A stretch of 64,000 nucleotides of DNA, from contig JAULBX010013983.1 of NCBI GenBank assembly GCA_032358255.1, positions 1 through 64,000 of the forward strand. The letters are read 5' to 3'. The notes below the pieces were generated by a model. That model made no database searches and was not told where the DNA came from. It saw only the letters and a list, made by a program, of their open reading frames with translations. Of the stretch, positions 879-60,863 are shown one piece after another (position 1 is the stretch's first letter; the number at the start of each line of letters is the position of its first letter). The translations under genes were made by a program, and so were the position numbers. The DNA is from Heterotrichella gracilis (Eukaryota > Sar > Xanthophyceae > Tribonematales > Xanthonemataceae).

Positions 879-5791
<4,913 letters not shown>

Positions 5792-6384
5792 GGCAGGTGC
5801 TGAGGGTTCACGGGGCGGCGGTGGCGGCGTGGGGCATGCTCGGGCCGCAGCGGCGGGTGTGTGGGGTTATATAGGGCGCCTGCTATGCATGCACTGTGCC
5901 GCCGAGCGCCGACAAGCGTGAGGCTAGGTCAAGAGGTGGGGATCGGTAGGTGGCGTGTATATATGCAAGCGTATGGCGGAAAGGGATGACTGCAAAGGGG
6001 TGACGGTTAGGAATCTGGTGTGGATTGTGTGCTTTGTGAACGTTGCACTTTACCTGTTTTGAACAACTGCCGCAATTTCAAACCCAGCAGTTTGCCCGTT
6101 TCATATGCTTAATTGTTCCTCCAGAGTCATGTGGGTCACATGGGCACCCATGTGACAATCAATATATGCATGTGGCTTTCTAGAAACAGGGACCCGTTGC
6201 TATGAGTCCAAAAATACACACCCTAGAAACGACCGTTTCTAATTATCAAAGTCCCAGTTACACTCTGATAATTTGCTTCGATGAACTTTCACGTACAAGG
6301 TCTGCCGCCAACTTGCATGGACAACGTGCACCAACCTACGTAAGTATATGCCTCGACACACCCTTGCTAACCTTGTCCGCAACC
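5792..6384. other. Spacer upstream of CTP synthase; no gene seen
   Basis: The segment just right of 5791 should hold the CTP synthase promoter. A GC-rich stretch (5800-5870) is followed by 'ttatatagg' near 5867 on the plus strand, but no clear TATA element can be assigned on the minus strand. From about 6000 the sequence becomes AT-richer toward the mobile block. No further gene is supported. Confidence 0.4.
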
Positions 6385-6799
6385 ATGTCGATCGCTTTCC
6401 TGCTTTTCGTGGCAAGCATGACCACCGTGTTCACCAAGCAAACACTTCTCAACGTGGTTGCCCTAGATCCGCTGCACATACAGCAGCTTCCGACGTGGCC
6501 TGTCTACACTGGACCAAACCCACACGTACGACTGTTGCAGGATAACGTTTTCTCTCGAGCAGCAGTCCAAAACACTACTTGGTTCGCAAACTTACCAGAT
6601 ACTCTCACCATACAAGACTTCAACCTGACCTTCGAGAACCACCTCCAGGTACGAGCTTACCCTGGCTTAGGGTCGATAACGTCCATATGCATGCATTGTG
6701 ATACGCTGACTCGCTTCTCCTCTGCAGGCCGTGAACAACTTCTATGCCAACAACAATAGCTTCGTCAAGAATGGAGCCAAGTTCGTGGCTGACTACATG
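6385..6799 (+). pseudogene. 5' exons of a second recombinase-family gene
   Basis: Two exons, 6385-6648 and 6728-6799, separated by a GT-AG intron, encode about 112 residues. They align along their length with the first exon of the recombinase gene at 8294: NVFSRAAVQNTTW matches QLFSPTAVQLYAKW, and SFVKNGAKFVADYM matches AFLKNGCKVVSDYL. Both end at the same place in phase 0 before a GT donor. No copy of the later exons follows; the BRO-N gene comes next. It is either a truncated paralogue or an alternative first-exon set that could splice to 8665. The N-terminal residues (about 1-25) are hydrophobic in this copy only. Confidence 0.6.
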
Positions 6800-6961
6800 G
6801 TACGCGCGGTAACAGTTTGGAATGTTTTGCACTGGAAAAGGGCCTCCATAAACATGGTCGGCTGGAGGCCTCTGGGGCCACAACTTTCTTACGCACTTAC
6901 ATGAGTGCGCGTTCATGTAACATTTAAAACTTATATACAAGGGTAAAACGTGTTAGACCCT

Positions 6962-7852
6962 ATGGATGGCCACATAGAAGATCCAAACTGTATTGTCAAA
7001 GCATTTGAAAACATAGATGTATCGATACTACGTGAACAGAAAGGATCAAGGCAGTTCTGCTACTTCCGTGCAACAGATGTTGCAAAAGCTATCGGTATCA
7101 AGAATATATACAAAACCATACAGAACTACAAACAAACTCAAGAAAGGGTCTTTCGCAAAGTGAGTACCTCTGGTGGGCCACAAGATGTAGTCTTCTTAAC
7201 TTCTCATGGAATATACAGGTTGTTATATTCTTCAAGATCAAAAGCAGGAGAACAATTTCGGGAGTGGGTTGGTGATATTATAGATGACATACTATTCAAC
7301 AATGGACAACTGTTACATAAGCAAATAGAAAAGCTACAAGATGAAATGAAACAGCTATTAATTGACACCGAAAAAACACTAATTGAGAGTTTTCACCAAA
7401 AGAGTGTTGTATACATTGCTCGGGTGAATGACACCGTTGCAAAGTTTGGTTACACAGACGACATCAGATCCAGAACTATGTCACATAAAAGGGATTATGG
7501 AAGTAATTTCAAATTGTATGCTGTCATAGAGTGTGAAAAGAACAGGGATTTAGAAAGAAAGATAAAACAGTCGGTTGAGTTCAAGTCACGCTGCACTACG
7601 TTGCATGTTGGTGGAAGGATGCAATGCGAATTAATAACAATAGATAACATATTTACTTGTGAGGAGTTCTACAAGGTAGTCAAAAAGTTGAAGCAAAAAC
7701 TTGTAACTAACTTAGACTCAATTGAACTAAAGAAGCTGCAGTTGCAAGTGAAAAATACGGAGTTGCAAATAGAATTGTTAAGAATGCAAACGGGTGATTC
7801 ATCATATCAAGTCCAAGAACAAGAACAAGAACTAGACCAAGAACAAGAATAG
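6962..7852 (+). CDS. BRO-N domain protein with GIY-YIG-like region (virus-type)
   Basis: An unspliced ORF of 296 aa from the ATG at 6962; an in-frame GTG at 6950 would add four residues. Residues about 15-110 form a BRO-N DNA-binding domain with a readable FRATDVAKAIGIKN, a TSHGIYRLLYSS stretch and REWV. Residues about 150-220 resemble the T5orf172/MUG113 branch of the GIY-YIG fold (VVYIARVNDTVAKFGYT, then R, H and a conserved E). This pairing is well known in large DNA viruses and their relatives. The protein ends in a Gln/Glu-rich tail and a TAG at 7850-7852, beyond which the same frame stays open to 8254. The likely role is DNA binding, perhaps transcription control or a homing-type function; the exact role cannot be read from the sequence. 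It lies 162 bp after the recombinase-like 5' exons. Confidence 0.85.
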   Translation: MDGHIEDPNCIVKAFENIDVSILREQKGSRQFCYFRATDVAKAIGIKNIYKTIQNYKQTQERVFRKVSTSGGPQDVVFLTSHGIYRLLYSSRSKAGEQFREWVGDIIDDILFNNGQLLHKQIEKLQDEMKQLLIDTEKTLIESFHQKSVVYIARVNDTVAKFGYTDDIRSRTMSHKRDYGSNFKLYAVIECEKNRDLERKIKQSVEFKSRCTTLHVGGRMQCELITIDNIFTCEEFYKVVKKLKQKLVTNLDSIELKKLQLQVKNTELQIELLRMQTGDSSYQVQEQEQELDQEQE

Positions 7853-8254
7853 CCTGCAGCACAGCCTGCGACAGAAATTCAAATCAACATTCCCATTGAC
7901 CCCCTACCTATTCTTCCTGCAAACATTGGCGACCTTGTTGTATTTTATCAAGGTTGGGTTAGCAATTATAAAGAATTGTATCAGCAGCACTTTGTTGCTC
8001 ACAACGGTTTTAAATGGGCTGAAATGTACGGTGCAGCAAATGCCAGAACCATACGTGTGCGCTTCTGCAAGATGAAAGGTTGGTTGGAGTTCCTTGATAG
8101 TCTGCCATCTGAACACGCAAATCAAGCTCTTTGCATTATGACTGACCTTGCAGTGAAACACGAAATCTCTCACAGTGTCTTTGTGCGGGAAGTTTTCTAC
8201 TACATTGTAAACCAGATGGAAAGTCCAGATTTCCTAACGTGGTCAATGATGTAA
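7853..8254 (+). pseudogene. Read-through continuation of the BRO-N ORF: GCR1_C-like domain
   Basis: The frame of the BRO-N ORF continues after a single TAG for 133 sense codons, ending in TAA at 8252-8254. The stop follows a Gln/Glu-rich run (a CAG codon would give TAG by one change), and the downstream protein is well behaved. The part from about 7930 (LVVFYQGWVSNYKELYQQHF) to 8230 resembles the GCR1_C-type DNA-binding region at the C-terminus of the neighbouring recombinase. RVRFCKMKGWLEFLDSLPS here matches RTMFCKYKVFFRYMDQVPS there, and SVFVREVFYYIV matches CSFVKSVVYVAT. An independent start at 7976 is possible but would cut the domain. Confidence 0.6.
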
Positions 8255-8293
8255 AGGCACAGCTTGAAGAGTTTGGATTCAAACTAGATAACA

Positions 8294-10805
8294 ATGTCTA
8301 ACAAACTAGATGTGTTGCAAAGCAATATCTCACACTGGCCCAAGCCGCCACGTACCACTGCACATCTACGTTTGATCCATGAACAGCTGTTTAGCCCCAC
8401 CGCAGTGCAGTTGTATGCTAAATGGTACCTGGATTGTGAGGATATGCTATCAAGTCATCAGCACAATCATTTTCAAACTACCGTAGAACTCAAACTCAAA
8501 GTCATTCAAAACATATACATGAATGCCTTTGCGTTCCTCAAAAATGGATGCAAGGTTGTATCAGATTACCTGGTAGGTTTTAAGCACACCTTGCTTCAGA
8601 CACTTTGTTCTTTGTACTGACTCTTTGCTCAGTACTGACACTTTGTTCTCTGTATGCGTTGCAGCGCTTATGTGGGAGGAATGGCTACCATCCTATCATT
8701 GATGATGTCAACAAGGTGGCGCAGTTCATCAGAGATACCGTTCCCAAGGACAACCCCACACGGTACTACAACTGTCTCTACAATGACCTCAAGCACCTGG
8801 AGAGAGTTGCGCAATGGCAGGGTTTCCTTGTGAGCGGTCTCACTTGCAGTAGCGCTATCAGAGTGCTAAAGGATGAGGCATCCACGCTTCTCAAGGTAAT
8901 GTGCTGGCAGTAATGTACTACAATTTTCATACCGTACAGGCAGTAACACAGTACTTGTTGCGTTACAGGTGCATCAACAAACCGCAAGTGACAAAGCAGC
9001 AGAGTCAAAGTTCCTTACCAAGCAAATTGACAAAGATGGGTTTGCAGTATTGCACAATGCACTGTGGTCTGGGACAAAGGCTGGCACTGCAAGGGAGCAT
9101 ATGCAGCATCTTACCATGTTTTATTCACACGAGAAACATGGTCGAAGAGCTGGTGATGAAAGGAAAATGACATACAATGGGACCTTTGTCAAATGCATTG
9201 CCGAAGCTGGTCCTACACGGTGCATGGCACTGGCAAACAGCATCACCGGGCCCAAGGAGAACCAGTTTGGCGAGAAGCTGCTCTTGTCAGTGCGTGGGCC
9301 AGACCCCCTTGATTGTCACCACGCAGTGTTCAGCTTCAAGACTGTCTGGATGATTGACATTAACAAGACCAACATTTTGCAGGTAATAACACTGTTGAGT
9401 AATTGACACGTGGCATAAGTGGATGCAGATTTGATTGAAACTGAAACTGAACAAATCTGATCTGCAGGACCTTGGCCAAGATTTGCAATCAGCGCTCAAC
9501 CTTGGCACTGGGGAGAGCTATGACCCTGAGTGGTGGAAATATCGCATTTTGTTTGGCAGTGATCCAAAGGCTGAGATGTCAGAATCTACCCAGCAACGGC
9601 GTGTCAAATTGTACCTCCAGGAAATGGATCTCAGCAGCAACACCCACGTGCTCCGCTACTGTATCAACATCAAGCTCATTCAGCAAGGGTAAGTAACTTT
9701 TCATCAAACTGCTGCTGGTATTGCGCTTCTCATTTGGTGATTGCGCTGTTGATTGAAAAATTGTGTTCACAGGATGGATGTGGAGGATGTGGAGATTTTC
9801 ATGGGAACGCTCAAAACTACAGCAGCTGTGTACTACTTGGAGGCGTCAGTCAAAAAGGCAGTGTACACTGCTTGCAGATGGGATGGGCCCACTGAGTTTC
9901 GGTGCTGGTGGCAAGGGGAGAGGTCAGATATCCCAGAGATTCTGCTGCAGCAGGTGTTTCCCGAGCTTCCTGAGCTGCAGCGATTGGCAGAGGAAGTGTA
10001 CCAGAAGAGCAAGGGGTCTTCGGTGAAGCAACAACTGGACTTTTCTGCCAAGCATTTCACACACATTGTCCTACCATACCTTCAGCAAACATTTCTGGAG
10101 GCAGCTGTCTATATCATTGACAAATACCCATCCAATCCAGCTTTCCAGCACCCCATCTTCACACGGCCCGACTTGCGCACAGTGTTTGATGCCTACGCTG
10201 TGGCAGAGCGCGCCAGGGGGGCCTACCGCAGAACACAGTTGTTCTCTTCAGCCACATCACCAGTTGCAACAGCCCCAATGCAACCATCACCAGTCAGGCA
10301 GCCAGCAAAGCGTGTTGCTGAACCCGTTTACATCGAGCCTGAGCAGAAGAGGATGCACATTGCTACCAGCATACTAGCACCCCGCTTCCCAGACAACAAA
10401 ACAGTGTCGCTGCAGGATTTGTATGCATCATGGACACAGCCTGGCAGAGCTGGAATCCCCGACATGTCAGGCAAGGAATGGATGGAGCTACACAACTTCA
10501 CATCACAATGGGCCAAACAATATGGATCTGACACCAATGCTGGGTTGAGGACAATGTTTTGCAAGTACAAGGTTTTCTTCCGTTACATGGACCAGGTCCC
10601 GAGCCACTTGCGCACAGATGTCATTCAGGTCATGGACAATGTCAGGCCCAGCAACATGTCAGCGTGCTCATTTGTCAAGTCGGTGGTGTATGTTGCAACC
10701 AAATCAGATGCTGAGTTGGCTGCCAAGGCCACAAAGGATAACAAGCTGGCATTGGAGCTGAGGAAACAGCTGGGCAGCAAACAGCTACCAATCCCAACAA
10801 AGTGA
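8294..10805 (+). CDS. Crypton-like tyrosine recombinase, five exons
   Basis: Exons 8294-8572, 8665-8895, 8969-9382, 9468-9688 and 9773-10805 join in phase through GT-AG introns to 725 aa. I assign it to the tyrosine recombinases from spaced motifs: an arginine in KHGRRAGDERKM (about residues 229/230), H-x-x-R in NTHVLRYC (His368, Arg371) and a tyrosine in AAVYYLEA (about 402/403), 32 residues after the second Arg, as the family requires. The C-terminus (about 590-665) has the W..W....R...K.....D pattern of the GCR1_C-like DNA-binding domain found in Crypton transposases. Such enzymes cut and rejoin DNA through a covalent phosphotyrosine. The first exon has a diverged relative at 6385-6799. 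An intact frame over 725 codons suggests recent activity. Family assignment is by motif only, without a profile search. Confidence 0.65.
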
Positions 10806-10837
10806 CTATGTTTGTTTAAAATCGATATTTTTTATCA

Positions 10838-11245
10838 ATGCGGGTTGTAATAATGTTTGAAAAGACTCTGATTTTGTGCACAGTAATTGGATTCATTGCG
10901 TGGTACTACTTTGACAAGTACCAGGATTATGAGAAAGAACACAGCATATTAGTAAAGCGTTGTGAAGAACTGGAAAGTGAAAATCACCAGATGCGAGCCC
11001 GTGTAAATGATTTGCAATTGTACAGAAATGATGTCTCCAAGACCTTTCAGATTTTGGACAACGAGTTGTTGATGATCAATGATCACATCAAGAAGCAATC
11101 TGATCAGCAACCACAAACAGTGGAACCTGCCCCAACAAATTTTGTGTCAATTCTTACACCTGAACTACTTGGTTCTTTGTTCACCAACATGAACCCACAA
11201 CGGGACCCAATTACAGACTCCGAGGTCCCTGTACCCTCAAGTTGA
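10838..11245 (+). CDS. Small membrane-anchored coiled-coil protein, virus-like
   Basis: 135 aa, starting 32 bp after the recombinase stop; a second ATG at 10853 begins MFEKTLILCTV. One N-terminal transmembrane segment (LILCTVIGFIAWYYF) is followed by a charged coiled coil (YEKEHSILVKRCEELESENH, then further heptads) and a Pro/Asn-rich tail. No family is recognised. Single-pass coiled-coil proteins of this size are common among structural or membrane genes of large DNA viruses and polinton-like viruses, but the resemblance is generic. An AT tract (atattttttatc) lies just upstream. Confidence 0.6.
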   Translation: MRVVIMFEKTLILCTVIGFIAWYYFDKYQDYEKEHSILVKRCEELESENHQMRARVNDLQLYRNDVSKTFQILDNELLMINDHIKKQSDQQPQTVEPAPTNFVSILTPELLGSLFTNMNPQRDPITDSEVPVPSS

Positions 11246-11384
11246 CTTGTGAACCTGTACTGATTAACATCCCATTGGGAAGGACACATCAAAATTTTGA
11301 CAGATTTTTGATGACCGAAGAGCCGCCAGTCAATGAAACGGACATCTGAATTGGCAGTTTTTTTTTATATTTTGTATACACCAA

Positions 11385-11636
11385 ATGTATAAACCAAACA
11401 AGATGCCAAAAATTGCCATGAGTGACGGACGCGAATTCACAGACTTTAACTCTGCGTGTACATTGAACGGTATGCTGCAAAAAAAGTATAATATCACCAA
11501 CTCACACGATTACCGGTATTTCCTCCAAAAGAATGCTGAAAAGGTTATGAAGGACCTTGCTGATTGCCAACCAAAGCAAGGTTGCCTTCTTTGCCCGGTC
11601 TGCAAACAAGCATTGGAAGCCGCTAAGAAGGATTGA
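11385..11636 (+). CDS. Short cysteine-containing protein, virus-like
   Basis: 83 aa, or 77 from the ATG at 11403. It opens with MPKIAMSDGREFTDF and contains an NGMLQKKYNITNSHDYRYFL segment and a CLLCPVCKQ motif with a CxxC pair that could bind zinc. I associate this short-protein style (DGR.FTD near the start, a Tyr/Phe-rich middle, terminal cysteines) with uncharacterised small proteins of giant algal viruses, from memory and without a search. A T9 tract and TATA-like string lie 10-30 bp upstream. Confidence 0.6.
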   Translation: MYKPNKMPKIAMSDGREFTDFNSACTLNGMLQKKYNITNSHDYRYFLQKNAEKVMKDLADCQPKQGCLLCPVCKQALEAAKKD

Positions 11637-11681
11637 CTTGAAAGGATTTTTTTTATTTGTTATTAACAAGGTAACAAATAC

Positions 11682-11861
11682 ATGGCAATACTTTTGCTAG
11701 TCTTGGCAATGATGCTCGTCTTTTACTTTACATACAACGTCATCAATGCATACAATGAAGTTCAATACGTCGAGTCAGATCTTGACCATAACATGTACAT
11801 GATCCGTACAAGCATTGGATCTGGTCGATATCTTCTGTCTTGGATGGGTGCTCCCGAGTAG
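11682..11861 (+). CDS. 59-aa single-pass membrane protein at the edge of the block
   Basis: ATG at 11682 gives MAILLLVLAMMLVFYFTYNV and then a short hydrophilic tail, stopping at 11859-11861. The first 20 residues are a clear transmembrane segment. Its last third overlaps antisense gag sequence, so the natural C-terminus may be lost at the junction. A T8 tract sits 22-36 bp upstream, as before the two previous genes. Confidence 0.5.
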   Translation: MAILLLVLAMMLVFYFTYNVINAYNEVQYVESDLDHNMYMIRTSIGSGRYLLSWMGAPE

Positions 11862-12770
11862 TAGTGCTCAGGGCCCTGCTGGTAGTCATAGGGCTCCTGA
11901 TATGAAGACTGCTGGTCCTCATAGTAGTCAAGGTCAGCGTATTGGGCTTGAGGCTGACGTTGTTGGTTGGTTGGTGGTGGAGGGGGCTGCCTCCTCCGGG
12001 GCTGGGTGCAGTCGGGTGTGATGTGCCCTTCTTCCCCACAGTTGTAGCAGACGGGTGGCCTGTAGGGCTGGCGGGAGCGGTTGACCTCCTCCTGCAATGC
12101 TTTCCTCACATCTCCCAGCAGCCTCACTTGAAGCTTCTGAAACTCCTGGGCCAGGTTGTCAACTCCATACTTGGTGGCTTCTGCGGGTCTCCCTGTTGGG
12201 TGGAGCGGGTTGCTTGTTACCGGTGGTGCTTGCGAGCCTAGGTGGTGTATGCAAAGTGGATGCATGTGCATGTACGTCTACACTAACCTGTCCTTGGTCC
12301 TGCCTCTGGAAATAGGTTGCAAGATGCACGGCCTCCTCAAAACTACTGGGCATTTTAGCTACAACTTTATCGCGTAAGGAGTCTTGGAGGTTCCTCTCAA
12401 ACAGAATTTGGAGCAGCTTAGCAGGTAGAGCATTATCACCTAATGCTTTATTCATACCTCTAAGGGCATCAGCAAAGTCCTGAGCCTCCTCACCAGTACG
12501 CTGAAAGCGGCTTTCTAGCTCCTGCAGCAATTGGGCGTCATCCTTGTCATACCTAGCCTTCAGCAGATTCTTAAACTCTTCCCAAGTAGGTAGGATATCG
12601 TCATCACATACCCCTTCGAACCAGCTAGCAGCTTTCTTCACTAATCCGGTGATTGCCTTGAGCACCAAAGTGCGCTCAGGCCAATCATGCAAATCCCTTC
12701 ATCTTTCTAACTCCTAATCCAACTGCGGACACTAACACGGTTCTGCGTACCATCAAACTCTGGGAGTTTG
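11762..12770 (-). pseudogene. Retrotransposon gag remnant with CCHC zinc knuckle
   Basis: Reads right to left. About 12770-12705 encodes LPEFDGTQNRVSVRSWI. After a frameshift near 12700, 12692-12159 encodes the gag core (HDWPERTLVLKAI, WEEFKNLLKARY, ESRFQRTGEEAQDFADAL). Another frame (12271-11762) continues through EVNRSRQPYRPP and the knuckle CYNCGEEGHITPDC into a Gln/Tyr-rich tail. Two frame changes show it is dead. The pattern is that of Ty3/gypsy-type LTR elements. No protease, reverse transcriptase or clear LTR is attached; pol on the left is replaced by the virus-like block. Confidence 0.8.
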
Positions 12771-14225
12771 TGAACAACGTGGTGTTCTGCAACCATACTG
12801 GGCTGTCAGAACTGATACAGATGCAACGGAATGTGCTTAATGCAGGGGTCAAACGGTGCGCCAACGGACTCAATAAACGTGCTGGTCGTGCCAAGTGGGC
12901 CAAAATACGTACTGTGATATAGGGTGGTGCAAACTCTTCCTAAAACGGACTGGTCAACGGGACTCAGCGTCAGGGTGTAGAGTGAGCGACAGGTGGGCAA
13001 CAAACAGACTCAAAAACGCAGAATAACGTGCTGGTTCGAACAAAAGCCAATAAACGTGCTGTAAACGACTTCAACGAGCGTGGTACAAGGCAAACGTCAA
13101 GGAACAGATACTGGTCGAAAGGGAACAAGGTTCACGTGGCGACTCGTGGGTCACGTGGGTGTCACTGAAACGCTGAAATTGCAATGAATGAGGGAATGAG
13201 TTCGAGGAAGTAGCTCTTTACGGACTGCAAACGGAGGTTACGACCTGAGTACTCGTAAAAAACGCTAACACGAACCTGAGGGACTAGCGAAACGCTCTAG
13301 TGTGCAGGCAAAGTGCAGTGCGGGCAGGGCAGTGAAGGGCGATGTGCAGCTGGCACGGGAGGCTCCCCGTCGGGAGCATGCTTTTTTTCGGAGGCGGATG
13401 GCGGCGTATCCCCGGGGCGTATAGGGCGTTGCAAAGCTGAATAAAGTGGCCACCTTCATAAACTGAAAAAATACAAATATTACTAAGTAAACTGTTTTGA
13501 CAAGGTAAAGCCATCACGCATTATTCAAGGGACCAGTTATGTCATCACAATAGTGACGCGCTGTGTGCCAAAAGATATAAAGATTTCATTTTTTTGCCAA
13601 GTTTGGTGGGGAAATGAAATGCCAGGGGATGATGTGGTGCAATAGAACCGACTGTGCCGCCGTGCGCTGGCATAGGAGTCGGGGGTTGCAGCTCTGGCCT
13701 TGGTGGCTCTCAGTTTCCTTGTTAAGGCTTCACCTAGACATAAACCTCTTATACCCCCGGCTAATGATTATACATCCTGCCAATCCCAATCCTTCGTCCT
13801 GGCCTCCACTGATTCTATTATCCCAAAGATCCCCTCTACTCCATTCAATCCTTCACCTTCCTGATTGATCATGCCATCCTAAAAAAAAAATCCTTTTAGT
13901 GGTTTTCAGCCTGTTGTTTCAGCATCCATGTTGCCAGTGATTGATTGTAAGACAAGCAGGGCGTCCCGGAATGGCCCAGCAGGGCCCATGTATCAATTGT
14001 CCTGTTTGGTGTGAATGCCGCCATCATGAAACTTCAATTGCAATAGGGCTTGACAGCACAGCGCCTGCCCACACACCACACAATTGGGTGACACTAATCG
14101 AACTGACAAGTCATGCGTGGTCACGATTCTAACTCTGATGGGGGCAGCTGCAGTCATGGTCAGCTCGGGTCTGCTGTGCGCCTATATAAGCACCCTGAGC
14201 TCCCTGAGCTCCCTGAGCAGGACTG
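12771..14225. other. Repeat-derived spacer
   Basis: 12800-13150 contains recurring 'aacgtgctgg' and 'aaacg' strings and probably represents the leader or LTR side of the gag remnant, although no LTR pair is visible. A GC-rich patch lies at 13320-13430. From 13560 to 14225 there is only AT-rich or low-complexity sequence. No gene is supported. Confidence 0.35.
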
Positions 14226-15672
14226 CTAATTGACAAAACTTGATTCGGTTATCGCCCACATTGCAGCTCCTGCTGCGTCACACAGTGCCATGATTACCTT
14301 AATGAACACAGTGCCAAACCAGGTCATCGCTGGGATGACGGCACCGCTCTTGATCCATAGTGCTGGGGTAGCAGGGGTTGTCATGATGGCGTAGATGTGC
14401 ACAATGACAACCAGGGTGAACATCAACCCCGTCTTGGCAAGGTCCACCATCAGACTGCTCCCCAACAGCCTGCCCATGGCCTTCACCAGGATGTAGATCA
14501 AGAAATGTGTAAAAATGGCGATGTGGCCTTCATAAAGCCACTCCGCGGGCAGCCTCTGGGCGTAGGGCAAAGACCAGACAATCTTCCCCGCAAATCCAAT
14601 TGTCCAGCAAATGGCGAGTTGCATGATGGTACTGTATATGATCTGCAAGCGCAACAGTGTGAGTTACGCAGGGACTGCGTCTCTGAGATGCTTGCACGCC
14701 AACACTGATGACATCAGACCACTTGCGGTGCCTTTCATGCTGTGGAACACTCGCAACTGTTGTGACCACAGCAATGGCATTCCAGATAGCACAGCCAGGT
14801 GCAATGCAGACTAGTCAGTCATAGGCTTGTCACGTGATTTCACCACAGATGGTTCAGTACGTACCGATCCCATTGTCATGGATTTGGTTTTGGTGTCCTC
14901 GGCAGCGACAAGATCTGAGGGGCATGGCCTGATGGTGGGCATGGAAGGTGGAATGTCAGGATGCGTTGGCAATGATCTGTTGGTGGGGGATGGATGCAGT
15001 GCGTTATGTTTGGTAGGATAATAGGGCAGCGCGCCGTGGGGAGGCCCAGAGCCACATGGGCTGACCTTGCGTTACGTGATTAGCTGCGTTGACACCGCCA
15101 GCTGCAGTGCAGGGATGGTATAAGCAGTGTCAGGACAGGGCTAGTTGGTGCAAGGCATGCAGGACTGCTAATCTGCCTTTATCGCTGGAACGCAGGTAAT
15201 TAAGTAAGTAAGGATGTAGGTGACAGGTGCACGATTAGGATGCAAGTATTGGGTGGCGGAGGTGGATGGTACCATCCACCTCCGCCCTGCACATGCTGCA
15301 TCGGTGGCAGCATGTGCAGGGTGGCGTGGCACTGAGCTAGTGCACAACAACAAAATCTTTAGACTGGAGTGATGGCACTGCATGGTGTGCAGGCACAACG
15401 TGATGCAATCAGTGCTTGATTTTGATCGTCGATGCGCAGGGTTCAGCACTTTCTCCACTGCACTTGTACTACGTAGTACATTTTTCACTTTGGGTTTCTG
15501 CATGCTCATCCTTTCCCATGCTTCCTTCCTTCTCCCACCATGTGCCTCACCTTTTGGCGGTTCTCTTGGCCGGATCTGATGGGTTCTGGGCGTTGTTGCT
15601 GCTGGCTGGCACAGGGCCAGTGTTGCTGTTGCCCATGCCGCTGTTGGCAGCGCTGCCGCTGCACCCCACCAC
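14226..15672 (-). CDS. Unrecognised spliced membrane protein (3' exons)
   Basis: Three minus-strand exons join in phase: 15672-15551, 15060-14865 and 14642-14226, with GT-AG junctions and a stop at 14226-14228. The first two encode a Ser/Asn/Pro-rich, likely disordered region. The last encodes four hydrophobic segments starting IIYSTIMQLAICWTIGFAG, AIFTHFLIYILVKAM, TGLMFTLVVIVHIYAIM and SGAVIPAMTWFGTVFIKVIM. No start codon is found in the first exon, so N-terminal exons to the right of 15680 are missing from this model. I recognise no family; a multipass membrane protein is all that can be said. Phase agreement across two introns makes a real gene likely. Confidence 0.45.
15040..15200 (+). 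repeat. Interspersed repeat family, diverged copy
   Basis: Shares 'ccacatgggctgacc', a 'ggtataagcagtgtc' box and 'ggactgctaatctgc' with the repeats at 17515-17735, 18150-18345 and 61205-61378. The order and spacing are the same, and it ends in a 'taattaagtaagtaag' tail where others have TAAC repeats. It overlaps the intron and exon boundary of the membrane-protein model. Confidence 0.55.
15255..15319. repeat. Perfect 32-bp palindrome and adjacent hairpin
   Basis: 15255-15286 is a perfect palindrome with arm 'ggcggaggtggatggt'. Immediately after it, 15287-15319 forms a 13-bp stem ('ctgcacatgctgc') around a 7-nt loop. Function unknown. Confidence 0.85.
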
Positions 15673-16960
15673 CTGCACAAAGCAGACGGTCAGTGGCACG
15701 GGTTGCAGTTTTAAATTTACAGTTAACACATCAGCGTCAGCCTGTGTGTTTGCAAATTCGTCAGGTTGAAAGGCAGTGCTTGGGTGGACGTGGTTGCAAA
15801 GGATGTACCCTAAACTTCAAAACTCTCTGGGCAGAAAGCTTTGACGACCCATCAATGCATGCTGCAAGGCGGAAAAATAGCCATATAATACATTGCAAAG
15901 TCCTATAAGACGATGTAGGGTTGGTAGTGCAAGTGGGTAGTCCCTATTTTAAAAAAACCACTCAGAGTCTGGCCAGCATGCTTTGGGCAAGATTACCTCT
16001 GTGAGTGGGAGGTTCAGTTGATGCAGTAACGATCGCACTTATAATTATTGCAGTAACACTTTTGTAGTAGTCGATAGTACCAGCTTGTAGCAGTGGTGCA
16101 CACCAACTGGTTATGGGTGCTCGTTGGCAACAGTGGCGTATTGGCATGGGCATGAGTCATGTGCAAAGGGTGCACATAAGCCTACTTTGCTTCTGGTGGC
16201 GAAGTTCTTTGTTGCATTGGGATGGGCGATTTTGTTTGATCTTGATATTGTATTCTTCGGCCAGTTCAGCAAAGCCGGTATTGCCAGCCTTGAAGCCATG
16301 TTTTCTTATTGAGGAATTCCCCACAATGTGCACTTTAACTTGTCTCGTTAAAAGACAAGTGGAAGAAAATTGGAAGAGCGCCAAAAGTAACCTTTTCAAG
16401 CTCACTTATGAGGCTGCTGAACTTCACTCAACGATGTCCTGTTCCCTCAACAAGTTGCTGTTCGGTGACTCCTGATAGCCTTCAAATTTGACCGGGTGGG
16501 GGGCTCAAAACTCGGCAAGGCTAAAACAAGTGCACGAGGCACCCGACAGGCCCATATATCCTGGAACGTGGGTTTCGTCATCACGGTGCAACACCCATTA
16601 CACAATGCGCTTGAAAACGGAGAACTCAGTCTGGCCAAATAAGCAAAGAGGTGCAGTGCCATGCATGCATGTCGCACATGCATGCATAGTTGTTGACTGA
16701 ACTTGCAGAACCCATTTGCAGATCCCGTCTGCTTGTTTGTACAACTTGGGCAGCAACAAACAACTTGGGCAGCAAACAACGTTGATTTGGGTTGACCTTC
16801 AGAACTAGTAGTTACTGAGCAGATACAGCTGGTAACAGTGACTAATTATCCGACGTACTACACCAAAAAAACCAAGTTATGCAAATCAATGGTGGATGGT
16901 GGATCTGCGCTTGTTGAAATATCAAGTCACCATAAGCACTTGACACGAAGCTGACACATT
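15673..16960. other. Spacer, no gene recognised
   Basis: Contains an open stretch on the minus strand at 16299-16170 that begins MASRLAIPALLNWPKN and could be a transit-peptide-like 5' exon, but it cannot be linked in phase to anything. The rest shows no coding signal. Short tandem pieces occur near 16740-16780 ('acaacttgggcagcaa' twice). Confidence 0.3.
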
Positions 16961-16984
16961 GTGCAACCAGTCATCCCTTTCTTT

Positions 16985-17145
16985 TCCTTGCTGCTGTCAC
17001 TGCTGTCACTGCTGTCACTGCTGCTGTCACTGCTGCACTGCTGTCACTGCTGCTGTCACTGCTGCTGTCACTGCCGTCACTGCTGCCACTGCTGCTGTCA
17101 CTGCTGTCACTGCTGCCACTGCTGTCACTGCTGTCGTTGCTGGCC
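16985..17145. repeat. (TGCTGTCAC)n minisatellite
   Basis: About 160 bp of 6- and 9-bp units mixing 'ctgctgtca', 'ctgctg' and 'ctgccgtca'. It is open in several frames only because the unit length is a multiple of three. Confidence 0.95.
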
Positions 17146-17219
17146 TTTCCAATATTCGTATTCATAGGGTTGAGAGAGCATGCGCAGCATGGGCCCTGCT
17201 TGGTCCTTCCCAAAGGCTG

Positions 17220-17345
17220 ACTGGCCCGCCTGCTCCATGGCTTTGTTCAAGGCCTATTTGGTTTCGAGAGCAGGGTGTGGATGCCAATGCCTGTGCGGAC
17301 AAGGGGGACCTGGTGGAGCTGTGCAGGCAGATGGATGTGGGTGTG
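17220..17345 (+). other. Possible exon fragment, unrecognised
   Basis: The phrase GVDANACADKGDLVELCRQMD reads like part of a small helical (SAP-like) domain. The 3' part is repeated in degenerate form at 17387-17420 (gagctgtgcaggcagatgg versus gagctgtgcaggcgggcagg), with TTTAGGG-like spacers between. That is the pattern seen around real exons here. No neighbouring exon can be joined. Confidence 0.25.
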
Positions 17346-17514
17346 GTTTAGGGTTTTGTGGTTTAGGGTTTTATTGTCTAGGATTTAGGGAGCTGTGCAG
17401 GCGGGCAGGCAGAGGTGGATATTCATCGATGGGGTGGGTGTGGTAAGGGGGCAGAGCAGGAGTGAGTGGAGCAGGTAAGATTGGTAACGAGACTTTAGAA
17501 TTTGAAGTGAGTGC

Positions 17515-17735
17515 ATAGTTAGTTGATTAGTTAGTTACATGCATTCCAGCAATACAGCCAGATTAGCAGTCAGTCTTGCAAATGCGGCGCCATGCAGCTC
17601 TTTCCAGGCCATGTGACGTATAAATCCCACACGACGTGAGGTCCTGCTCTAGTAGGTCAAGTGGCCATGTGGCCCTTGGCTTACCCACCCCCTTTGGTCC
17701 CTCTACCCTACCAAACACCATACATAGCCTGCACC
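17515..17735 (-). repeat. Interspersed repeat family, inverted copy
   Basis: The reverse complement matches 18150-18345 over about 200 bp (ggtgtttggtaggg, 'ggccacatgg...gacc', 'caggacctcacgtcg', 'gactgactgctaatctggc', 'attgctggaatgcatgtaac') and ends in a (TAAC)n-like tail. The two copies face each other across about 400 bp. Confidence 0.85.
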
Positions 17736-18149
17736 TGATAATACTGGTGACGCAGTAATTCCAGCTGTATAGGTTTAAGGGTTCTAGGGTTCAAAAATTA
17801 CCGCTTAGTACACTTCCTGTTGCCGGTGACATCATGTGAGAAAGGGGAGCTGCTCTGCCTACCTTTCTAGTTCAGGTGTTGGGCTACCAGAAAATACCGG
17901 GAAATGTTGAATAATTTGCTGTCTTTGTGACATCAAATTACGTGCTACAAGAGTTAATCACAAGGTATGCTGGTCACACCGACGTGCGCACATCGCAACA
18001 ACAACACTGATTCACAACAGTAAACAGGCAGGGGGAGGCTGCAGGGCTTACGCAGGTTCTATAGCCAGTGCACCTATGGTCAACCTATGAATGGTGATAC
18101 AATGTGATAACTGCGATGTATATCTAATAGAAAATGTGTGGTGTTTGGT

Positions 18150-18345
18150 AGGGAAGAGGGGGCAAAGGGGTTAGGTAAGCCAAAGGCCACGTGGGCTGAC
18201 CTACTCCAGCAGGACCTCAAGTCGCGTGGGATCAATAAGTGGTTCAAACAGTGCCAGGAAAGGGCTGCGTGGCGCCAGATGTGCAAGACTGACTGCTAAT
18301 CTGGCTGTATTGCTGGAATGCATGTAACTAACTAACTAACTAAAC
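18150..18345 (+). repeat. Interspersed repeat family, direct copy with (TAAC)n tail
   Basis: Same family as 17515-17735, 15040-15200 and 61205-61378. It has 'gactgctaatctggctgtat' and 'tgctggaatgcatg' followed by four TAAC/AACT units. The shared internal box 'gtggttcaaacagtgcc' aligns with 'gtggtataaacagtgcc' at 61 kb and 'ggtataagcagtgtc' at 15 kb. It may be a retroposed (SINE-like) repeat or an LTR/TRIM end carrying a TATA box; the sequence alone does not decide. Confidence 0.8.
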
Positions 18346-18346
18346 T

Positions 18347-18492
18347 AACTATACAATAGAAACATTTCACAAAATATACAAAATCATCGCAGCGATAACC
18401 CCACCTTGCATAGCCATGTGTGCACTTGCAAGGTGGGGTTCTTGCTGCGACGAAGGTGTATATATTGTAAAATGTTTCAATTGTATATACAT
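18347..18492. mobile_element. Foldback element with about 55-65 bp inverted arms
   Basis: The left arm runs from 'ctatacaatagaaacattt' through 'cgcagcgataaccccacctt' to 'gca' at about 18409. The right arm from about 18434 ('tgcaaggtggggttcttgc') to 18492 is its imperfect reverse complement. The loop is about 25 bp. This is a MITE-like foldback; no coding capacity. Confidence 0.8.
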
Positions 18493-20051
18493 CCTAGTTA
18501 GTGCTACAGACAAAACAAATGTACAAAAGCTAGCTGTGTGGCGGCACCAAGAATGCAAGCCAACATGCAAGGCAACATGCAAGGCAATAAGAGGGTTACG
18601 GGTTCGTCGCTGCAAGCGTAGCCATCAGCACACATCAATTTCTCCAAAGCTGCTCCATGATGTGGTGGCTTGTTGTGAATGCACTTAATCTTCAACCGCA
18701 AGTTTAACCATGATCATGTTGCCAACCTCTGAAGCCATTATTAATCTGATTTCCCCGCTGGGCGATGGTAAGCTCCTCCCCTCAGACCTTGAGCCTGTTA
18801 CCCTTGTGACCTACACATGCGGCAGCTGGGAAGAAAGAAACAAAGAAACACCAGTCCTGCATCGCATAATAGTGCGCAGCCTCACATGTGGGGGGATAGT
18901 ATACTACTTTTGATATTCCTGGGAACTTTCACGCGGAAGTGGCACTGTTGAGAATGGCGACTTCGCGACTTGGCGACTTCCGTCCTACTAGCTGCCAGGC
19001 AGCGCCTACCTTGCCCAAGGGTGAACAAAAAAAACGTTTACATCATACAAGGTCATACGGTAGCTTCGTTTTGACAAGCGACGGTCAATTACGTCATTAT
19101 GCCGATCTGAAACCGGATGCACATCCAGCGGACGCTGGCCAAACTTAGGAAAGTTTTTAGAAAGGAAGAAAGAAAGAAAACGCCCACAGGCGACAGCCAG
19201 GCACAACACACACAACAGGGCGTGTTCCAACTCGCCAGACACCAAAAAGGCGTGGATCACAAGGCATAGCCTGAAGCATAGCCTCGGTAAAAAGTTAGTC
19301 AGAATATGCGCCCAGGGGTGGATAAAAGCTAGAGCATTGATCAAGTCTGCGACACAATTAATGAAGAGTTCGGGTCCTCGCCAGCTTGGTAATAGCATTT
19401 GATGGCGGTTGTCCTTTGAGCCAGTGTGGTGCCAGTGAAGGTGGCAACACATGTTACTTTTTTCTTCCTGCACATGGGCATGCACTATTTTGCTAATGCT
19501 CAACTACTTGCATGGGGGATAACGCTGTAGCAATACCCTAGCCTAGGGTTCGTAAGGTGCAGAGAAGAACACTGACAAAAATCCTTGGTAGGGTTATGCA
19601 CCTCCAGGGAACAAATCCTGGCACCCTAGCCTAGGGTGTGTACATCTTCGCGATCAGATGTATATCGACCGATCGCACGTGCTGTGACTGGCTGTGGCTG
19701 TGGGTGCGGCAGTTGCTGTTGTGCTCGTTTAAAAGTGGCTGGTGGGGTGGTGGTCTGTAGCAAGGGGTGGAAATGCGCATGCCGTGTGCGGGCGGTTACA
19801 GAAGTGTACACCCTCTCAGATGAGGGGTCAACCAACGCATGGGGAAAAGGCCTCACATTGTGAAGGTGAAACAGAGCAGCCTTGTATTAGTTTCCTTAAC
19901 CGCCTAGGCTAGGTTTTGTTGTGGGCAAGGGGAGGAGCCCTGAGGACACCCTAGATGTCGGCAAGTGTCATTCCACGATCCTGACCATACCTAGCTAGTC
20001 ACCTTCAAGGTAACCCACGCACCCACGCTACCCCTCCCCACCCTCCTGTAG
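18493..20051. other. Spacer with short repeats; no gene recognised
   Basis: Short tandem phrases occur at 18545-18585 (aacatgcaaggc) and 18955-18990 (ggcgacttc). 'accctagcctagggt'-type strings recur at 19535-19640. A 165-codon open stretch on the minus strand (19006-19503) has no recognisable domain and I do not call it. Confidence 0.35.
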
Positions 20052-21059
20052 TCTGCTGCTGCGGCTGTGTCCGACTCCCATGCCCACCTGGATTTGGTGC
20101 TAAACGTGGCGGGGATTCTGCACATCCCGGGGGTCATGTCACCAGAAATCGCGCTGGCGCGGTTGAGGCCGCCAATCTGATGCGCTGCTTTACAACCAAT
20201 GCCATGGGACCCATACTGGTGGCCAAGGTAAGGAACAAATTTATCTCAGAAAAAGGGGGGGTAGGGGGGGCATAGGATTGCTTTTTTTATTATTATTATT
20301 TTTTGTTTAGATTTTCTATCATTGTGAGCTTGGGCTGGCTCCCTGAATGTGACTGTCATGTAAAATATATTTCTTGTAAATTGTTGGTTTTTGGGTGTAC
20401 CACAAATGCTGGGCCATGGACATACTGGCGGGCAGGCCGAGGAGCGTTTGGCACTAGCTCCATGCAGGGCGAGATCCTGCTTGGTCAGGTTATAGGGTTT
20501 AGGGTATATAATGCTCCATGCAGGGCGTGATCCTGCTTGGTCAGATCAGTCCGCGCAGACTAGTTGGTGGTTCAAAATGCAAGCTCTGCTGGATGGCTCC
20601 GTGCCCTAGGGGCCTGGCCTCCCTTTGTCACACACCCGCCCCGTTTTGCTGCAGGAGTTCTCCCCCTTGTTGGTCAAAGCTGCGGCGGTGAACGGAGCAA
20701 CAGAGTAAGCAAGCATGCCAACACACCCACACGCCACGCACCCTTGCGAACGTGCACCCAGCCACGCACCTGCACGCCATGCATCCAGACCCACGCACCT
20801 TGCTGTTGCCTCCACACCCAGCCACGCACACTTAGCCCTAATACACGCTGGAAACCCTAGTCTAGGTGTTGCTTGCACCCAGCCACGCACGCTTAGCCCA
20901 TGCACCTCGACACGCACTGCACACCCACACACACCAGGCATGCTGGTACACCCAAGCACCTGGGCACACCACCTCGTGCACTGGCCTAAGACTAAACAGC
21001 AAGAAATCGTATAAAAGGTTTTTAAACGCGATAACAAGGGTTGAAACTTTGCGCTGCCT

Positions 21060-21150
21060 GCCTTGAACCCTAAAACCCTAAACCCTTAACTTTGAGCTGC
21101 CTGCCTTGAACCCTAAAACCCTAAACCCTTAACTTTGCGCTGCCTGCCTT
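21060..21150. repeat. Three tandem units with TTTAGGG-type heptamers in an SDR intron
   Basis: The unit 'gctgcctgccttgaacccta' followed by 'aaaccctaaaccctta' occurs twice, then starts a third time just before the exon at 21182. A comparable array of 'gggttgcggctgttacatgt' units with TTTAGGG lies at 21500-21590. Confidence 0.9.
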
Positions 21151-21596
21151 GAACCCCCTCTCTCTCTTTCTCCCCGCGCAGCGAGCGGCCTGCTGTGGTT
21201 GCCAGCGTGAGTGCGCGCGTGGGCAGCATCTCCGACAACCACACGGGGGGCTGGTACTCCTACCGCGCCTCCAAGACCGCCCTCAACCAGCTGACCACCA
21301 CCATGGCGGTGGAGCTGGCACGCAGGAGGTACAAGGTGGCCTGCCTGCTGCTGCACCCCGGCACTTGCGACACAGACCTGTCAAAGCCATTCCAAAAGGT
21401 GGGCACTTAGGGTGTTGGATGTAGGGGCAAGCCATTCCAAAGGGTGGCGCTTAGGGTCTTGGATGCAGGGTCGAGCTGGGTCCTGACCTGCGTGTCTAGG
21501 GTTGCGGCTGTTACATGTAGGTTTTAGGGTTGCGGCTGTTACATGTAGGGTTTAGGGTTGTGGCTGTACATGTAGGGTCTAGGGTTGCAGCCATGG

Positions 21597-21695
21597 CGGT
21601 GGAGATGGGACGCAGGAGGTACAAGGTGGCTTATTTGTTGCTGCACTGTACCCTGGGACGTGTCATACTGATCTGCCTAGGCCATTCCAAAAGGC
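21597..21695 (+). repeat. Decayed copy of SDR exon 3 in intron 3
   Basis: Matches 21300-21402: 'catggcggtggag', 'cgcaggaggtacaaggtggc' and 'ggccattccaaaagg' recur in order. The copy would read through a damaged active-site loop and is outside the model. Confidence 0.9.
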
Positions 21696-21919
21696 TGCTT
21701 CGTGCGTAGGGTTTTAGGGTTGCGCCCTTGATCAAGTTCGAACACACCTACTCCAATGCCTTCTTGACCTTTCTCCCGTGTGCATTGCAGAACGTGCCAG
21801 CTGGCAAGCTGTTCACCCGGGAGTACTCTGTGCAGCAGATGCTGGGGATCATCGACGGCGCCACCACCGCCAGCAGCGGAAAGTTCTATGCATGGGACGG
21901 GCAGGAGATTCCCTGGTGA

Positions 21920-22430
21920 TGCACCTTCGGAGGAGGTCTGCGGCGGCGCGTGGGGAGGAGGGAGGGGGGCGGGGTGGGTGGCTGTGTGTGTGGGTGGGCT
22001 TGACACGCGAGTGGCGACATCCACAGACGGTGGCCGCTGGATCCATCCCTCGTGGTTATATTGGCAATGGTGCAAGCGTGCCCAGGCATATATTGCCAAA
22101 GTGCTTCACCACAGTCTTTTGCCAGTCCGTTTATACAGCCAGACAGCCGCCAAGTGCCCAACCAACTGGCAGGCGACGATGAAGTGATCATCAAGCCGGG
22201 TTTAGGGTTCAAGGTGGGCCATACTCGCAACAACCTGGGATTCAATTGTAGCACATTGAGATTTTGGGTCGGGGCGGCATGTTCCCCACTGAGTCAGGGT
22301 GCTAGCCTAGCGCGAGGTAATGACACGTCCTAATTAGGATGTCCCTGAGGCTCCTGGTTTTTCATGAACCAGGTCACCTTCGGAAGCTGTCGCAGCTTCT
22401 AATGATCCACAACAACCGCCAGAGCTACAA
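21920..22430. other. Spacer 3' of the SDR gene
   Basis: Possible 3' UTR to about 22100. The remainder probably belongs to the gypsy remnant that becomes readable from 22440. No independent gene is seen. Confidence 0.3.
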
Positions 22431-57027: not shown

Positions 57028-58352
57028 ATGGCGCCCCGCTGGCCTGCAGGTGTCACCCAACAGCTACACATGGACCAGTCTGCAGTAGCAACGACCAGAA
57101 CCAGCAGCCCTGCAGTGCAGTGTGAGGGGTGCCCCATAAACTCCCTCCCCGACCACCTGCTGCAGCGCATCTTTGGGTTACCGCCAGGGGACCAAACCAA
57201 CCAGTGTATGTGGATCGGTATCAAGCACCAAATGCGGCTGCAGCTGGTTTGCAAGCGCTGGAAGCAGGCCCTTGCAGGCCCAAGCTCGGCATGGGAGTAT
57301 GTGTACTTTTTGCCTCACAACCAGCCTTTTCTCGACTGGATATGCCCCAGGCTTGGAGCGACCAGGTCCCTCACCTGCTGCGCGTTCTCAACAGCCTCAA
57401 CCCAGCTTGTCTCACCTCCCTGCCCTTGACCAAGATCATATGCAGCAGGCAGAGTGCCAGGCAGTTGCTTGAGGCCACATTGCGCCTCACCTCCTTGTCT
57501 TCCTTAGACCTGGGCCTGTTGTGCACTCGGGAGCAGGTGGAGCCTTGCCTGCCTGCCATGGCAGCACTGGTCAACCTGGAGGAGCTCAGCCTTGATGTCT
57601 TGAGCCCTTCCCTTAGCAAGCAGAACTGGTGGCCACAGCTCCCATGTCTTCCCAAGCTGGGAGTGGCATGGGTGCAAGTGAACGAGGTGGACTTTGTCCC
57701 AATGCTCGCCCACCAGCCAGCACTCACCAGCCTGAAGATTTTTTATGGCTGTGCAGACGGCTTTACAATCGGCACCTCCTTGCGGCAGCTCACCCAGCTG
57801 AGGAGCTTGCAATTGGCGGTTAGAAACATGGACATAGCGCCTCACAGCTTCCCAACATTGCTACAACACGTTGACATGTACTGTAGTTCTCGTGCTATGG
57901 CGCTCCTCCCAGAGCTTGTCCACCTCACATACCTCCGCCTCAGCTCCAGAAGCATACAGCGCTTGACCCCTGCGCTGGCCAGTCTCAACAATCTCAAGGA
58001 GCTAAACGTCTCCCGCCTGGAGGAGCCACTCATGCCGCCGGTCATGCCTCATCTCACACTGCTGGAGATATGCGATGGGCGTGGCGTGCAGCTGGAGGTG
58101 CCAATCAACCCCACCCTGCGCATCCTGCCATGGGGCGGGTGGCACAGAGCGACGCATGGCGAGGGGTTGAGCCTCAAGGGGCAATATGGGGAGTACAGCA
58201 TGGCCGTGGATGTGGATGGCTGCATGGTGGTGCAGACCTTGCAGCGCCCGCCCCCTGATGCTAACCCCGTCGCTGACTGGGTGCATGGGGCGAGGAAAGA
58301 GCAGGAGCAGTGCTGTGCATTTCTGGATGCAGCTGCAGAGTGGAGGTCCTAG
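57028..58352 (+). pseudogene. F-box and leucine-rich-repeat protein, copy 1 (one frameshift)
   Basis: ATG 57028 opens a frame with an F-box (INSLPDHLLQRIFGL ... LQLVCKRWKQALAGPSSAW). F-box proteins bring substrates to SCF ubiquitin ligases. Near 57380 the frame changes, and a long open frame to 58352 holds about six leucine-rich repeats (LRLTSLSSLDLGLL, VNLEELSLDVLSP, LTQLRSLQLAVRNM, LVHLTYLRLSSRS, LNNLKELNVSRLEEP) and a conserved tail ending AFLDAAAEWRS. Compared with copy 2, 25 bp are missing at the join, which explains the frame change. It is either a pseudogene or a gene with an unrecognised intron there; no GT-AG pair fits obviously. Confidence 0.75.
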
Positions 58353-59515: not shown

Positions 59516-60863
59516 TTGGACCACTCAGCAGTAGCAACGACCAGCACCAGCAGCCCTGCAATGCCAGCCCACCTGTGTAAGGGGTGCCCTATACACACCC
59601 TCCCAGACTATATACTGCAGCGCATAGTTGGGAGACTGTCACTGAAACTGTCAGGCAAGGTTGAACAACTGGAGCTCCCGTATGTGACCAAGCACCGACT
59701 GCGGCTGCAGCTGGTGTGCAAGCGCTGGAAGCAGGCGCTCGCAGGCCCAAGTGCGGCATGGGAGGATATCTACTGTCCGCCCCACAGAGAGCCAGTTCTG
59801 GACTAGCTCTGCCCCAGGCTGGGAGCGACCAGGTCCCTCAACAATCTGAAAGGAGCGCCACACGACGTGCTGCGCGTTCTCAACAGCCTCAACCCAGCTT
59901 GTCTCACCTCCCTGCCCTTGCTTCAAAACATATATGCAGCGGGCACAGTGTCGGTCAGCTGCTGCAAGCCACCTTCCGCCTCACCTCCCTGACTTCCTTG
60001 ACAGTGTGCCTAGACCAGTGCTGCAACCTGGAGCAGGTGGAGCCGTGCTTGCCTGTCATGTCAGCACTTGTCAGCCTGGAGAAGCTTGGCGTTGAGATCA
60101 GGAGCCCTTCCCCTGGCCCAGGCAGGCGGCACTGGTGGATAGAGCTTCCTCCCCTTCCCAAACTGGGGATGGCATGGGTGCAAGTGAACGGGGTGGACTT
60201 TGTCCCAATGCTCGCCCACCAGCCTGCACTCACCAGCCTGACAATAGTTGGCTGCGCCCCAACATTCGGCACCCCCTTGCGGCAGCTCACCCAGCTGAAG
60301 AGCTTGCAATTGAGGGTCAACTCCATGGACATCGCGTCTCACAGCCTCCCAACATCGCTACAAAGCCTGGACATTCACCCTTCTCGGCCTGTGGCCTGGA
60401 CGCCATGGCGCTCCTCCCAGAGCTTGTCCACCTCACATACCTCCGCCTGCGCTCCAGAAGCATACAGCGCGTGACCCCTGCCCTGGCCAGCCTCACCAAC
60501 CTCCAGCAGCTGGAAGTGGTCAGTGGCCTGGAGGAGCCACTCATGCTGCCGGTCATGCCTCATCTCACACTGCTGGAAATACGCGATGCGCGGGGCGTGC
60601 AGCTGGAGCTGCCAATCAACCCCAACCTGCGCATCCTGTAGCGGGGCAGGTGGCACAGAGCGACGCATGGCGAGGGGTTGAGCCTCAAGGGGAAATATGG
60701 GGAGTACAGCATGGCCGTGGGTTTGAGTGGCTGCATTGTGGTGCAGACAGTGCAGCGCCGGGCCCCCGATGCTCTTCCAGGTGCTGACCGGGTGCATGAG
60801 GCGAGGACAGAGAAGGAGTGGTGCTGTGCATTTCTGGATGCAGCTGCAGAGTGGAGGTTCTAG
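59516..60863 (+). pseudogene. F-box and leucine-rich-repeat protein, copy 2 (decayed)
   Basis: Same architecture as copy 1. The start ATG is TTG (59516). A TAG at 59804-59806 replaces a Trp codon of copy 1. Frame changes occur near 59925 and 60385. A TAG at 60639-60641 replaces a Pro codon before the conserved tail that ends AFLDAAAEWRF at 60863. F-box (IHTLPDYILQRIVGRLSL) and LRRs remain easy to read. It keeps the 25 bp lost from copy 1. Confidence 0.88.

Follow-up and report, generated by a model that had tools for sequence, protein, structure and literature searches.

A nuclease joined to a DNA-handling module of a mobile element is known from Odn (Gp88) of phage ICP1, a T5orf172 nuclease with a DNA-binding domain like the RepA_N of the phage-inducible chromosomal island-like element (PLE); in excerpts of the report describing it, the N-terminal domain of Odn shares 42% identity with PLE1 RepA_N, and Odn cleaves PLE origins (PMC8263062). 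A related arrangement is described here for 64,000 nucleotides of Heterotrichella gracilis, probably an alga (assembly GCA_032358255.1, contig JAULBX010013983.1, positions 1 to 64,000 of the forward strand; this whole stretch is referred to as the window). There, a lower-GC region carries on its plus strand, in this order, two short exons (A1 and A2), an open reading frame (ORF) with a BRO-N domain, a C-terminal helical tail (tail A) and a tyrosine recombinase gene (8294-10805) ending in a second tail (tail B) (Table 1). As in Odn, a region resembling the GIY-YIG superfamily is found together with a homolog of a module from the DNA-handling protein of a mobile element, but the domain of Odn, in those excerpts, resembles the replication initiator of a hostile element and cutting is reported, whereas the partner here is the recombinase of the same locus. 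The locus further differs from Odn in that BRO-N is present, a stop codon intervenes, the nuclease region lies below the Pfam cut-off and the arrangement is known from sequence alone.

BRO/KilA-N proteins of large DNA viruses and phages were reportedly described as domain-shuffled by Iyer in 2002. Like these proteins and the anti-repressors in PHROG, the ORF studied here begins with BRO-N in front of a variable C-terminal part; unlike in the shuffled proteins, the C-terminal module that follows here is a paralog of the neighboring recombinase's tail. The recombinase resembles those of Cryptons, above all CryptonF, in combining NDC10_II similarity with a C-terminal extension, and the Crypton-derived genes Gcr1, Msn1, Hot1 and Cbf2 keep the C-terminal domain, with the catalytic site not preserved in Cbf2 and Gcr1 (PMC3212892, in excerpt). 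In contrast to Cryptons, the present locus yields no GCR1_C match, has five recombinase exons, was found in a single copy and contains a second gene in which BRO-N replaces the core. The endogenous polinton-like virus OmPLV encodes BRO-N fused to a nuclease domain (BRO-N-VRR-NUC), according to the sections of the report concerned (PMC12721341), and BRO-N therefore does join nucleases in such eukaryotic elements. GIY-YIG and tyrosine recombinase genes also co-occur in polinton-like viruses, as excerpts of the reports on OmPLV (PMC12721341, there also with BRO-N) and on cryptophyte polinton-like viruses (PMC12220804) indicate; modules common to a BRO-N gene and a recombinase are, however, not reported in those excerpts, and no capsid gene was found here. 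The first-pass annotation of this DNA had known of no system with such a pairing, and a literature search likewise returned no description of a BRO-N gene and a recombinase with both flanks in common; each ingredient is known, and the arrangement is without a report in the literature searched.

Comparison of tail A, which follows the BRO-N ORF, with the C-terminus of the recombinase identifies the two as homologs, as the first-pass annotation had proposed, and both peptides quoted there were found where it had placed them. Tail A is open from 7853 to 8251, directly past the TAG at 7850-7852 and in the same frame as BRO-N. Its Smith-Waterman score against tail B was 88, which none of 40,000 shuffles reached (highest 64), and a single BLASTP comparison gave an E value of 1e-8, with 19/63 identical residues (30%) and one gap. 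The strongest match pairs 8000-8206 with 10491-10697, and for this core the earlier description of an alignment free of long gaps was borne out; upstream of it, over about 7904-8000, several gaps were required. In a comparison with all 751 open segments of 50 or more codons in the window, the runner-up for tail A scored 49 and that for tail B 54. The genome of the same assembly (68.5 Mb, 903 contigs) was also searched with tail A, tail B and recombinase exon 5 as queries, with only the few best candidates scored (3, 2 and 2, respectively). Among these candidates each tail found the other as its best non-self match (E 1.9e-4 from tail A and 3.3e-4 from tail B), the whole of exon 5 matched tail A with an E value of 0.0019, and a decoy consisting of reversed tail A, the only tail reversed, gave no genome match at E ≤ 10.

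One match elsewhere in the genome speaks against the significance of such scores. A minus-strand segment (G000:C763:7563-7763) matched tail A with an E value of 0.006 and a Smith-Waterman score of 84 (0/3,000 shuffles), yet it scored only 22 against tail B and lies within a 249-codon open frame with hydrophobic segments; it was rejected as probably a chance match. Shuffle tests therefore overstate genome-wide significance, and scores of this kind are not trustworthy alone. The tail homology carries weight because of the short prior distance, the reciprocity of the matches and a second homologous pair on the 5' side. From position 7904, tail A is open across all 116 codons, a property shared by 0.28% of 20,000 sequences simulated with similar composition, which suggests that it stayed coding while diverging. 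AlphaFold2 models of tail A (with tail B as sole alignment partner) and of tail B alone were both all-helical and of low confidence, with a predicted local distance difference test (pLDDT) score of 58.9 and 54.4, respectively. Helices 61-83, 86-102 and 107-122 of tail A align to 56-77, 80-92 and 100-112 of tail B, with less agreement among the earlier helices. The structure comparison suggested for the tails thus placed three helices at matching positions, but in low-confidence models of which one was built with the other tail as its only partner, and the agreement is in line with homology but weak. No fold match to the tail A model was seen at E ≤ 0.001 in BFVD or the PDB, and a sequence search of the PDB gave no significant match. 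The proposal that the tails are GCR1_C-like had to be dropped, as neither matched this Pfam family at E ≤ 1 or ≤ 10 and a genome search, whose control was silent, found none. A C-terminal GCR1_C defines CryptonF and was absent from both tails at these thresholds; the locus is therefore not filed as CryptonF.

The second homologous pair joins the upstream exons to recombinase exon 1 (B1). When spliced and trimmed to the matching part, A1+A2 scored 125 against B1 by Smith-Waterman (0/20,000 shuffles), and BLASTP of A1+A2 against B1 gave an E value of 4e-16 with 28/79 identical residues (35%). Unspliced, A2 scored 65 and A1 63, both above all 20,000 shuffles, although A1 only barely (highest 62). 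Phase-0 GT donors follow the same motif at 6800 in the upstream copy (copy A) and at 8573 in the recombinase gene (copy B), and divergence over the aligned parts is alike in both pairs (35% identity in the 5' exons, 30% in the tails). The homology of the 5' exons rests on direct comparison. The A exons are open over 75 codons, which occurred in 4.7% of cases by simulation; together with the 116 open codons of tail A, this indicates that copy A was probably coding during much of the divergence. Between 6800 and 7905, no counterpart of exons 2-4 or of the catalytic part of exon 5 was detectable; the best scores there were 36, 29, 31 and 38, and 50 control stretches gave averages of 30-35 with maxima of 37, 51, 43 and 40. 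As the 5' exons and the tails are homologous in the same order and on the same strand, the upstream locus is a head-to-tail paralog of the recombinase gene that lacks the catalytic core and holds the BRO-N/GIY-YIG-like ORF in the core's place. Of the earlier picture of two proteins with one shared targeting module, the homology of the tails stands, but the 5' exons are common as well, so that the repeated unit is a duplicated recombinase gene with another core.

The recombinase model comprises five exons encoding 725 amino acids, separated by GT-AG introns of 92, 73, 85 and 84 nt. Pfam NDC10_II was matched above the cut-off (E 9.4e-11 with exon 5, 1.6e-10 with the spliced protein), and the corresponding genome search gave an E value of 1.8e-9 at 9894-10172; Phage_integrase, at E 0.002 on the spliced recombinase, remained below the cut-off. 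The R-H-R-Y catalytic residues were assigned by eye, exon 4 contributing HxxR and exon 5 a candidate tyrosine. The putative label of Crypton/Ndc10-like recombinase rests on NDC10_II, and it agrees with the initial description, which placed one tail after an ORF that combines BRO-N and a GIY-YIG-like region and the other at the end of such an enzyme. No further copies of exon 5 or exon 1 were present among the genome matches listed, and exon 5 had no match at E ≤ 1 among phage records. A weak match to exon 3 (E 0.044) with three internal stops was seen on the minus strand at G000:C867:4759-5061 and is perhaps a fossil of a decayed recombinase relative.

The ORF in place of the core matched Bro-N (PF02498) with an E value of 1.4e-11 and 45.3 bits, against a cut-off of 25.6, and no other Bro-N match was found in the genome. 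Behind the part resembling the GIY-YIG superfamily, its C-terminal region is coiled and Q/E-rich. Matches to the ORF were returned for 85 of 50,697 phage records, none of which covered 80% of it, and in the three of the 85 that were aligned the similarity faded, by eye, beyond BRO-N. NCBIfam gave no match at E ≤ 0.1 for the BRO-N ORF, tail A or recombinase exon 5.

We favor, with a probability of about 0.5, the reading that the upstream gene is a core-swapped chimera which kept the recombinase's helical C-terminal module, with Odn as its closest functional precedent. The region would be the remnant of a mobile or virus-like element with a tyrosine recombinase, the gene for which underwent a head-to-tail duplication. 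The recombinase would have been kept in the downstream copy, while in the upstream copy the core is absent and the BRO-N/GIY-YIG-like ORF lies between the retained N-terminal exons and the C-terminal helical module. Such a module may hold the recombinase at its DNA or within its complex, and the chimera would use it to deliver BRO-N and the nuclease-like parts to the sites or the recombinase complex served by the module, where they would cut DNA or else block or regulate recombination. Three points of this scheme are inferred: binding of the tail to DNA or to the recombinase, a former single protein made of BRO-N and tail A, and any cutting. The shared frame and a hydrophilic linker on both sides of the stop were counted in favor of one protein. 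The G+C content at third codon positions (GC3) of tail A (0.42) did not differ from that of the BRO-N ORF (0.36, p 0.28) and was lower than that of the exon 5 linker with tail B (0.58, p 0.006) and of the A exons (0.63, p 0.006). One protein is slightly favored over two. The in-frame stop and the presence of one copy only point to a locus that is now decaying or silent, and the chimera is probably decaying.

Several observations weigh against the chimera. The TAG at 7850-7852 splits BRO-N from tail A in frame, and agreement of frame alone has a one-in-three chance. The GC3 of tail A also did not differ from that of recombinase exon 1 (0.47, p 0.50), and the GC3 comparisons comprise several uncorrected tests on short stretches. 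A genome search with B1 did not list the A exons, which are short, at E ≤ 1. The nuclease-like region fell below the Pfam cut-offs for both MUG113 (E 0.001, 20.1-20.4 bits, cut-off 22.3) and T5orf172 (E 0.057, 14.4-15.6 bits, cut-off 20), with GIY-YIG motif-like residues recognized by eye only. DNA binding by the tail is putative, both tail models being of low confidence (pLDDT 59 and 54). No relatives with this arrangement were confirmed in IMG/VR with a few short-pattern queries that reach close relatives only, which is a weak sign of rarity. Finally, among the AGs in 6830-7062, only 7039 and 7054 are phase-0 acceptors leading from the 6800 donor into the BRO frame; their use would keep the Pfam-matched Bro-N part, which begins at residue 37, but would lose PHROG-matched residues (from residue 14-18 on). 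The ORF therefore probably has its own start, and direct splicing of the A exons to the N-terminus of BRO-N is disfavored for the same loss.

The BRO-N/GIY-YIG-like ORF may instead be an independent, homing-endonuclease-like gene nested within the recombinase paralog, with 7850-7852 as its natural stop and no BRO-tail protein; the paralog would then be a core-less recombinase, perhaps spliced from 6800 to 7864, or a broken copy. This is a serious possibility, though it is held with less than even confidence. Splicing from the 6800 donor to the AG at 7864, each of phase 0, would leave the frame of the tail intact and put BRO-N in a 1065-nt intron, and the ORF differs in composition (GC 37%) and has an ATG of its own that could serve as start. 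In polinton-like viruses, excerpts of one report treat GIY-YIG genes as homing endonucleases that mostly stand alone (PMC12220804). The putative intron is, however, far from the 73-92 nt seen elsewhere in the locus, the acceptor at 7864 is T-poor (T share 0.13 versus 0.27-0.47 in the five introns, with a pyrimidine share of 0.47 that equals the lowest of the five), and the GC3 of tail A follows that of BRO-N and not that of the A exons. As for transcript ends, the green-algal polyadenylation signal TGTAA follows A2 (6916) and copy B (10846) and lies at the end of tail A (8250); with further occurrences at 7702, 8206 and 11002, it was too frequent to be used as evidence.

That BRO-N acquired a GCR1_C-like targeting module of the recombinase independently, without gene duplication, would account for the homology of the tails, but is improbable given that the 5' exons are also homologous in the same order and strand and that no GCR1_C match was obtained. 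Chance similarity of helical, low-information sequence, for which the C763 match of nearly equal Smith-Waterman score (above all 3,000 shuffles and itself probably due to chance) might be cited, is scarcely credible for reciprocal best matches 2.5 kb apart that no shuffle equaled, with an empty decoy search and a second homologous pair on the 5' side.

If the core-swapped chimera is true, the locus would be a eukaryotic case of mobile elements turning their own integrases into regulators or weapons, and would supply a test pair of two tails expected to recognize related sites or the same partner. A further-reaching version, which is speculative and unlikely, is an element with two proteins that share C-terminal (and ancestrally also N-terminal) recombinase modules but have exchanged cores, tyrosine recombinase in one and BRO-N nuclease in the other, the second acting at the sites where the element itself recombines, so that competing copies might, for instance, be excluded or destroyed, as an integrase-derived eukaryotic counterpart of Odn. 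Were the nested gene true, the locus would still be a clear case of a BRO/GIY-YIG-like gene occupying the place of a recombinase core.

Table 1. Predicted features of the duplicated recombinase locus (window positions)
Feature	Positions	Strand	Basis
Copy A exon A1, N-terminal (homologous part only)	6496..6648	+	Homology of A1+A2 to B1
Copy A intron, 79 nt, GT-AG	6649..6727	+	Splice sites; one in-frame junction of two tried
Copy A exon A2, followed by phase-0 GT donor at 6800	6728..6799	+	Homology to B1
BRO-N / T5orf172-like (GIY-YIG superfamily) ORF	6965..7852	+	Bro-N profile; TAG 7850-7852; position of copy B's catalytic core
Tail A: linker and C-terminal helical module, open in BRO frame after stop	7853..8254	+	Tail homology; low-confidence helical model
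Recombinase exon 1 (B1)	8294..8572	+	GT-AG model; homologous to A1+A2
Recombinase exon 2	8665..8895	+	GT-AG model
Recombinase exon 3	8969..9382	+	GT-AG model
Recombinase exon 4, HxxR-like motif by eye	9468..9688	+	GT-AG model
Recombinase exon 5: catalytic end with candidate Tyr (by eye), NDC10_II region, linker, tail B	9773..10805	+	NDC10_II; tail homology
Tail B	about 10365-10802	+	End of ORF 9753-10805

The region lies between a minus-strand gene, the exons of which (3624-5791) we take from their translation to resemble CTP synthase, and retrotransposon-like sequence that starts near 11,740-11,815. The apparent CTP synthase start is at 5791 and the element lies just upstream of it, so that it may be located within the promoter region of that gene. 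On the other side, minus-strand Gag-like ORFs at 11743-12692, presumably with a CCHC zinc knuckle motif, border the element, which they seem to truncate. A search of 5600-22000 for repeats of at least 25 nt revealed neither a long direct-repeat pair like long terminal repeats nor repeats framing the region, Crypton-type terminal repeats being short. Downstream of the recombinase are three small ORFs without introns, at 10838-11245, 11385-11636 and 11667-about 11815, with spacings of 32, 139 and 30 nt, and this tight spacing looks virus-like. The first has an N-terminal hydrophobic segment, a coiled part and a weak match to a Rz-spanin-like PHROG (2.1e-4); the second encodes 83 amino acids with a CxxC motif, its match on contig C511 being taken as chance; the third is hydrophobic and overlaps the retrotransposon-like sequence. 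Across the genome, Capsid_NCLDV, the capsid model used, gave no match, with a silent control. Farther along the window, two alike leucine-rich ORFs (57129-58352 and 59716-60474), with starts about 2.6 kb apart, appear by eye to be a tandem duplicate.

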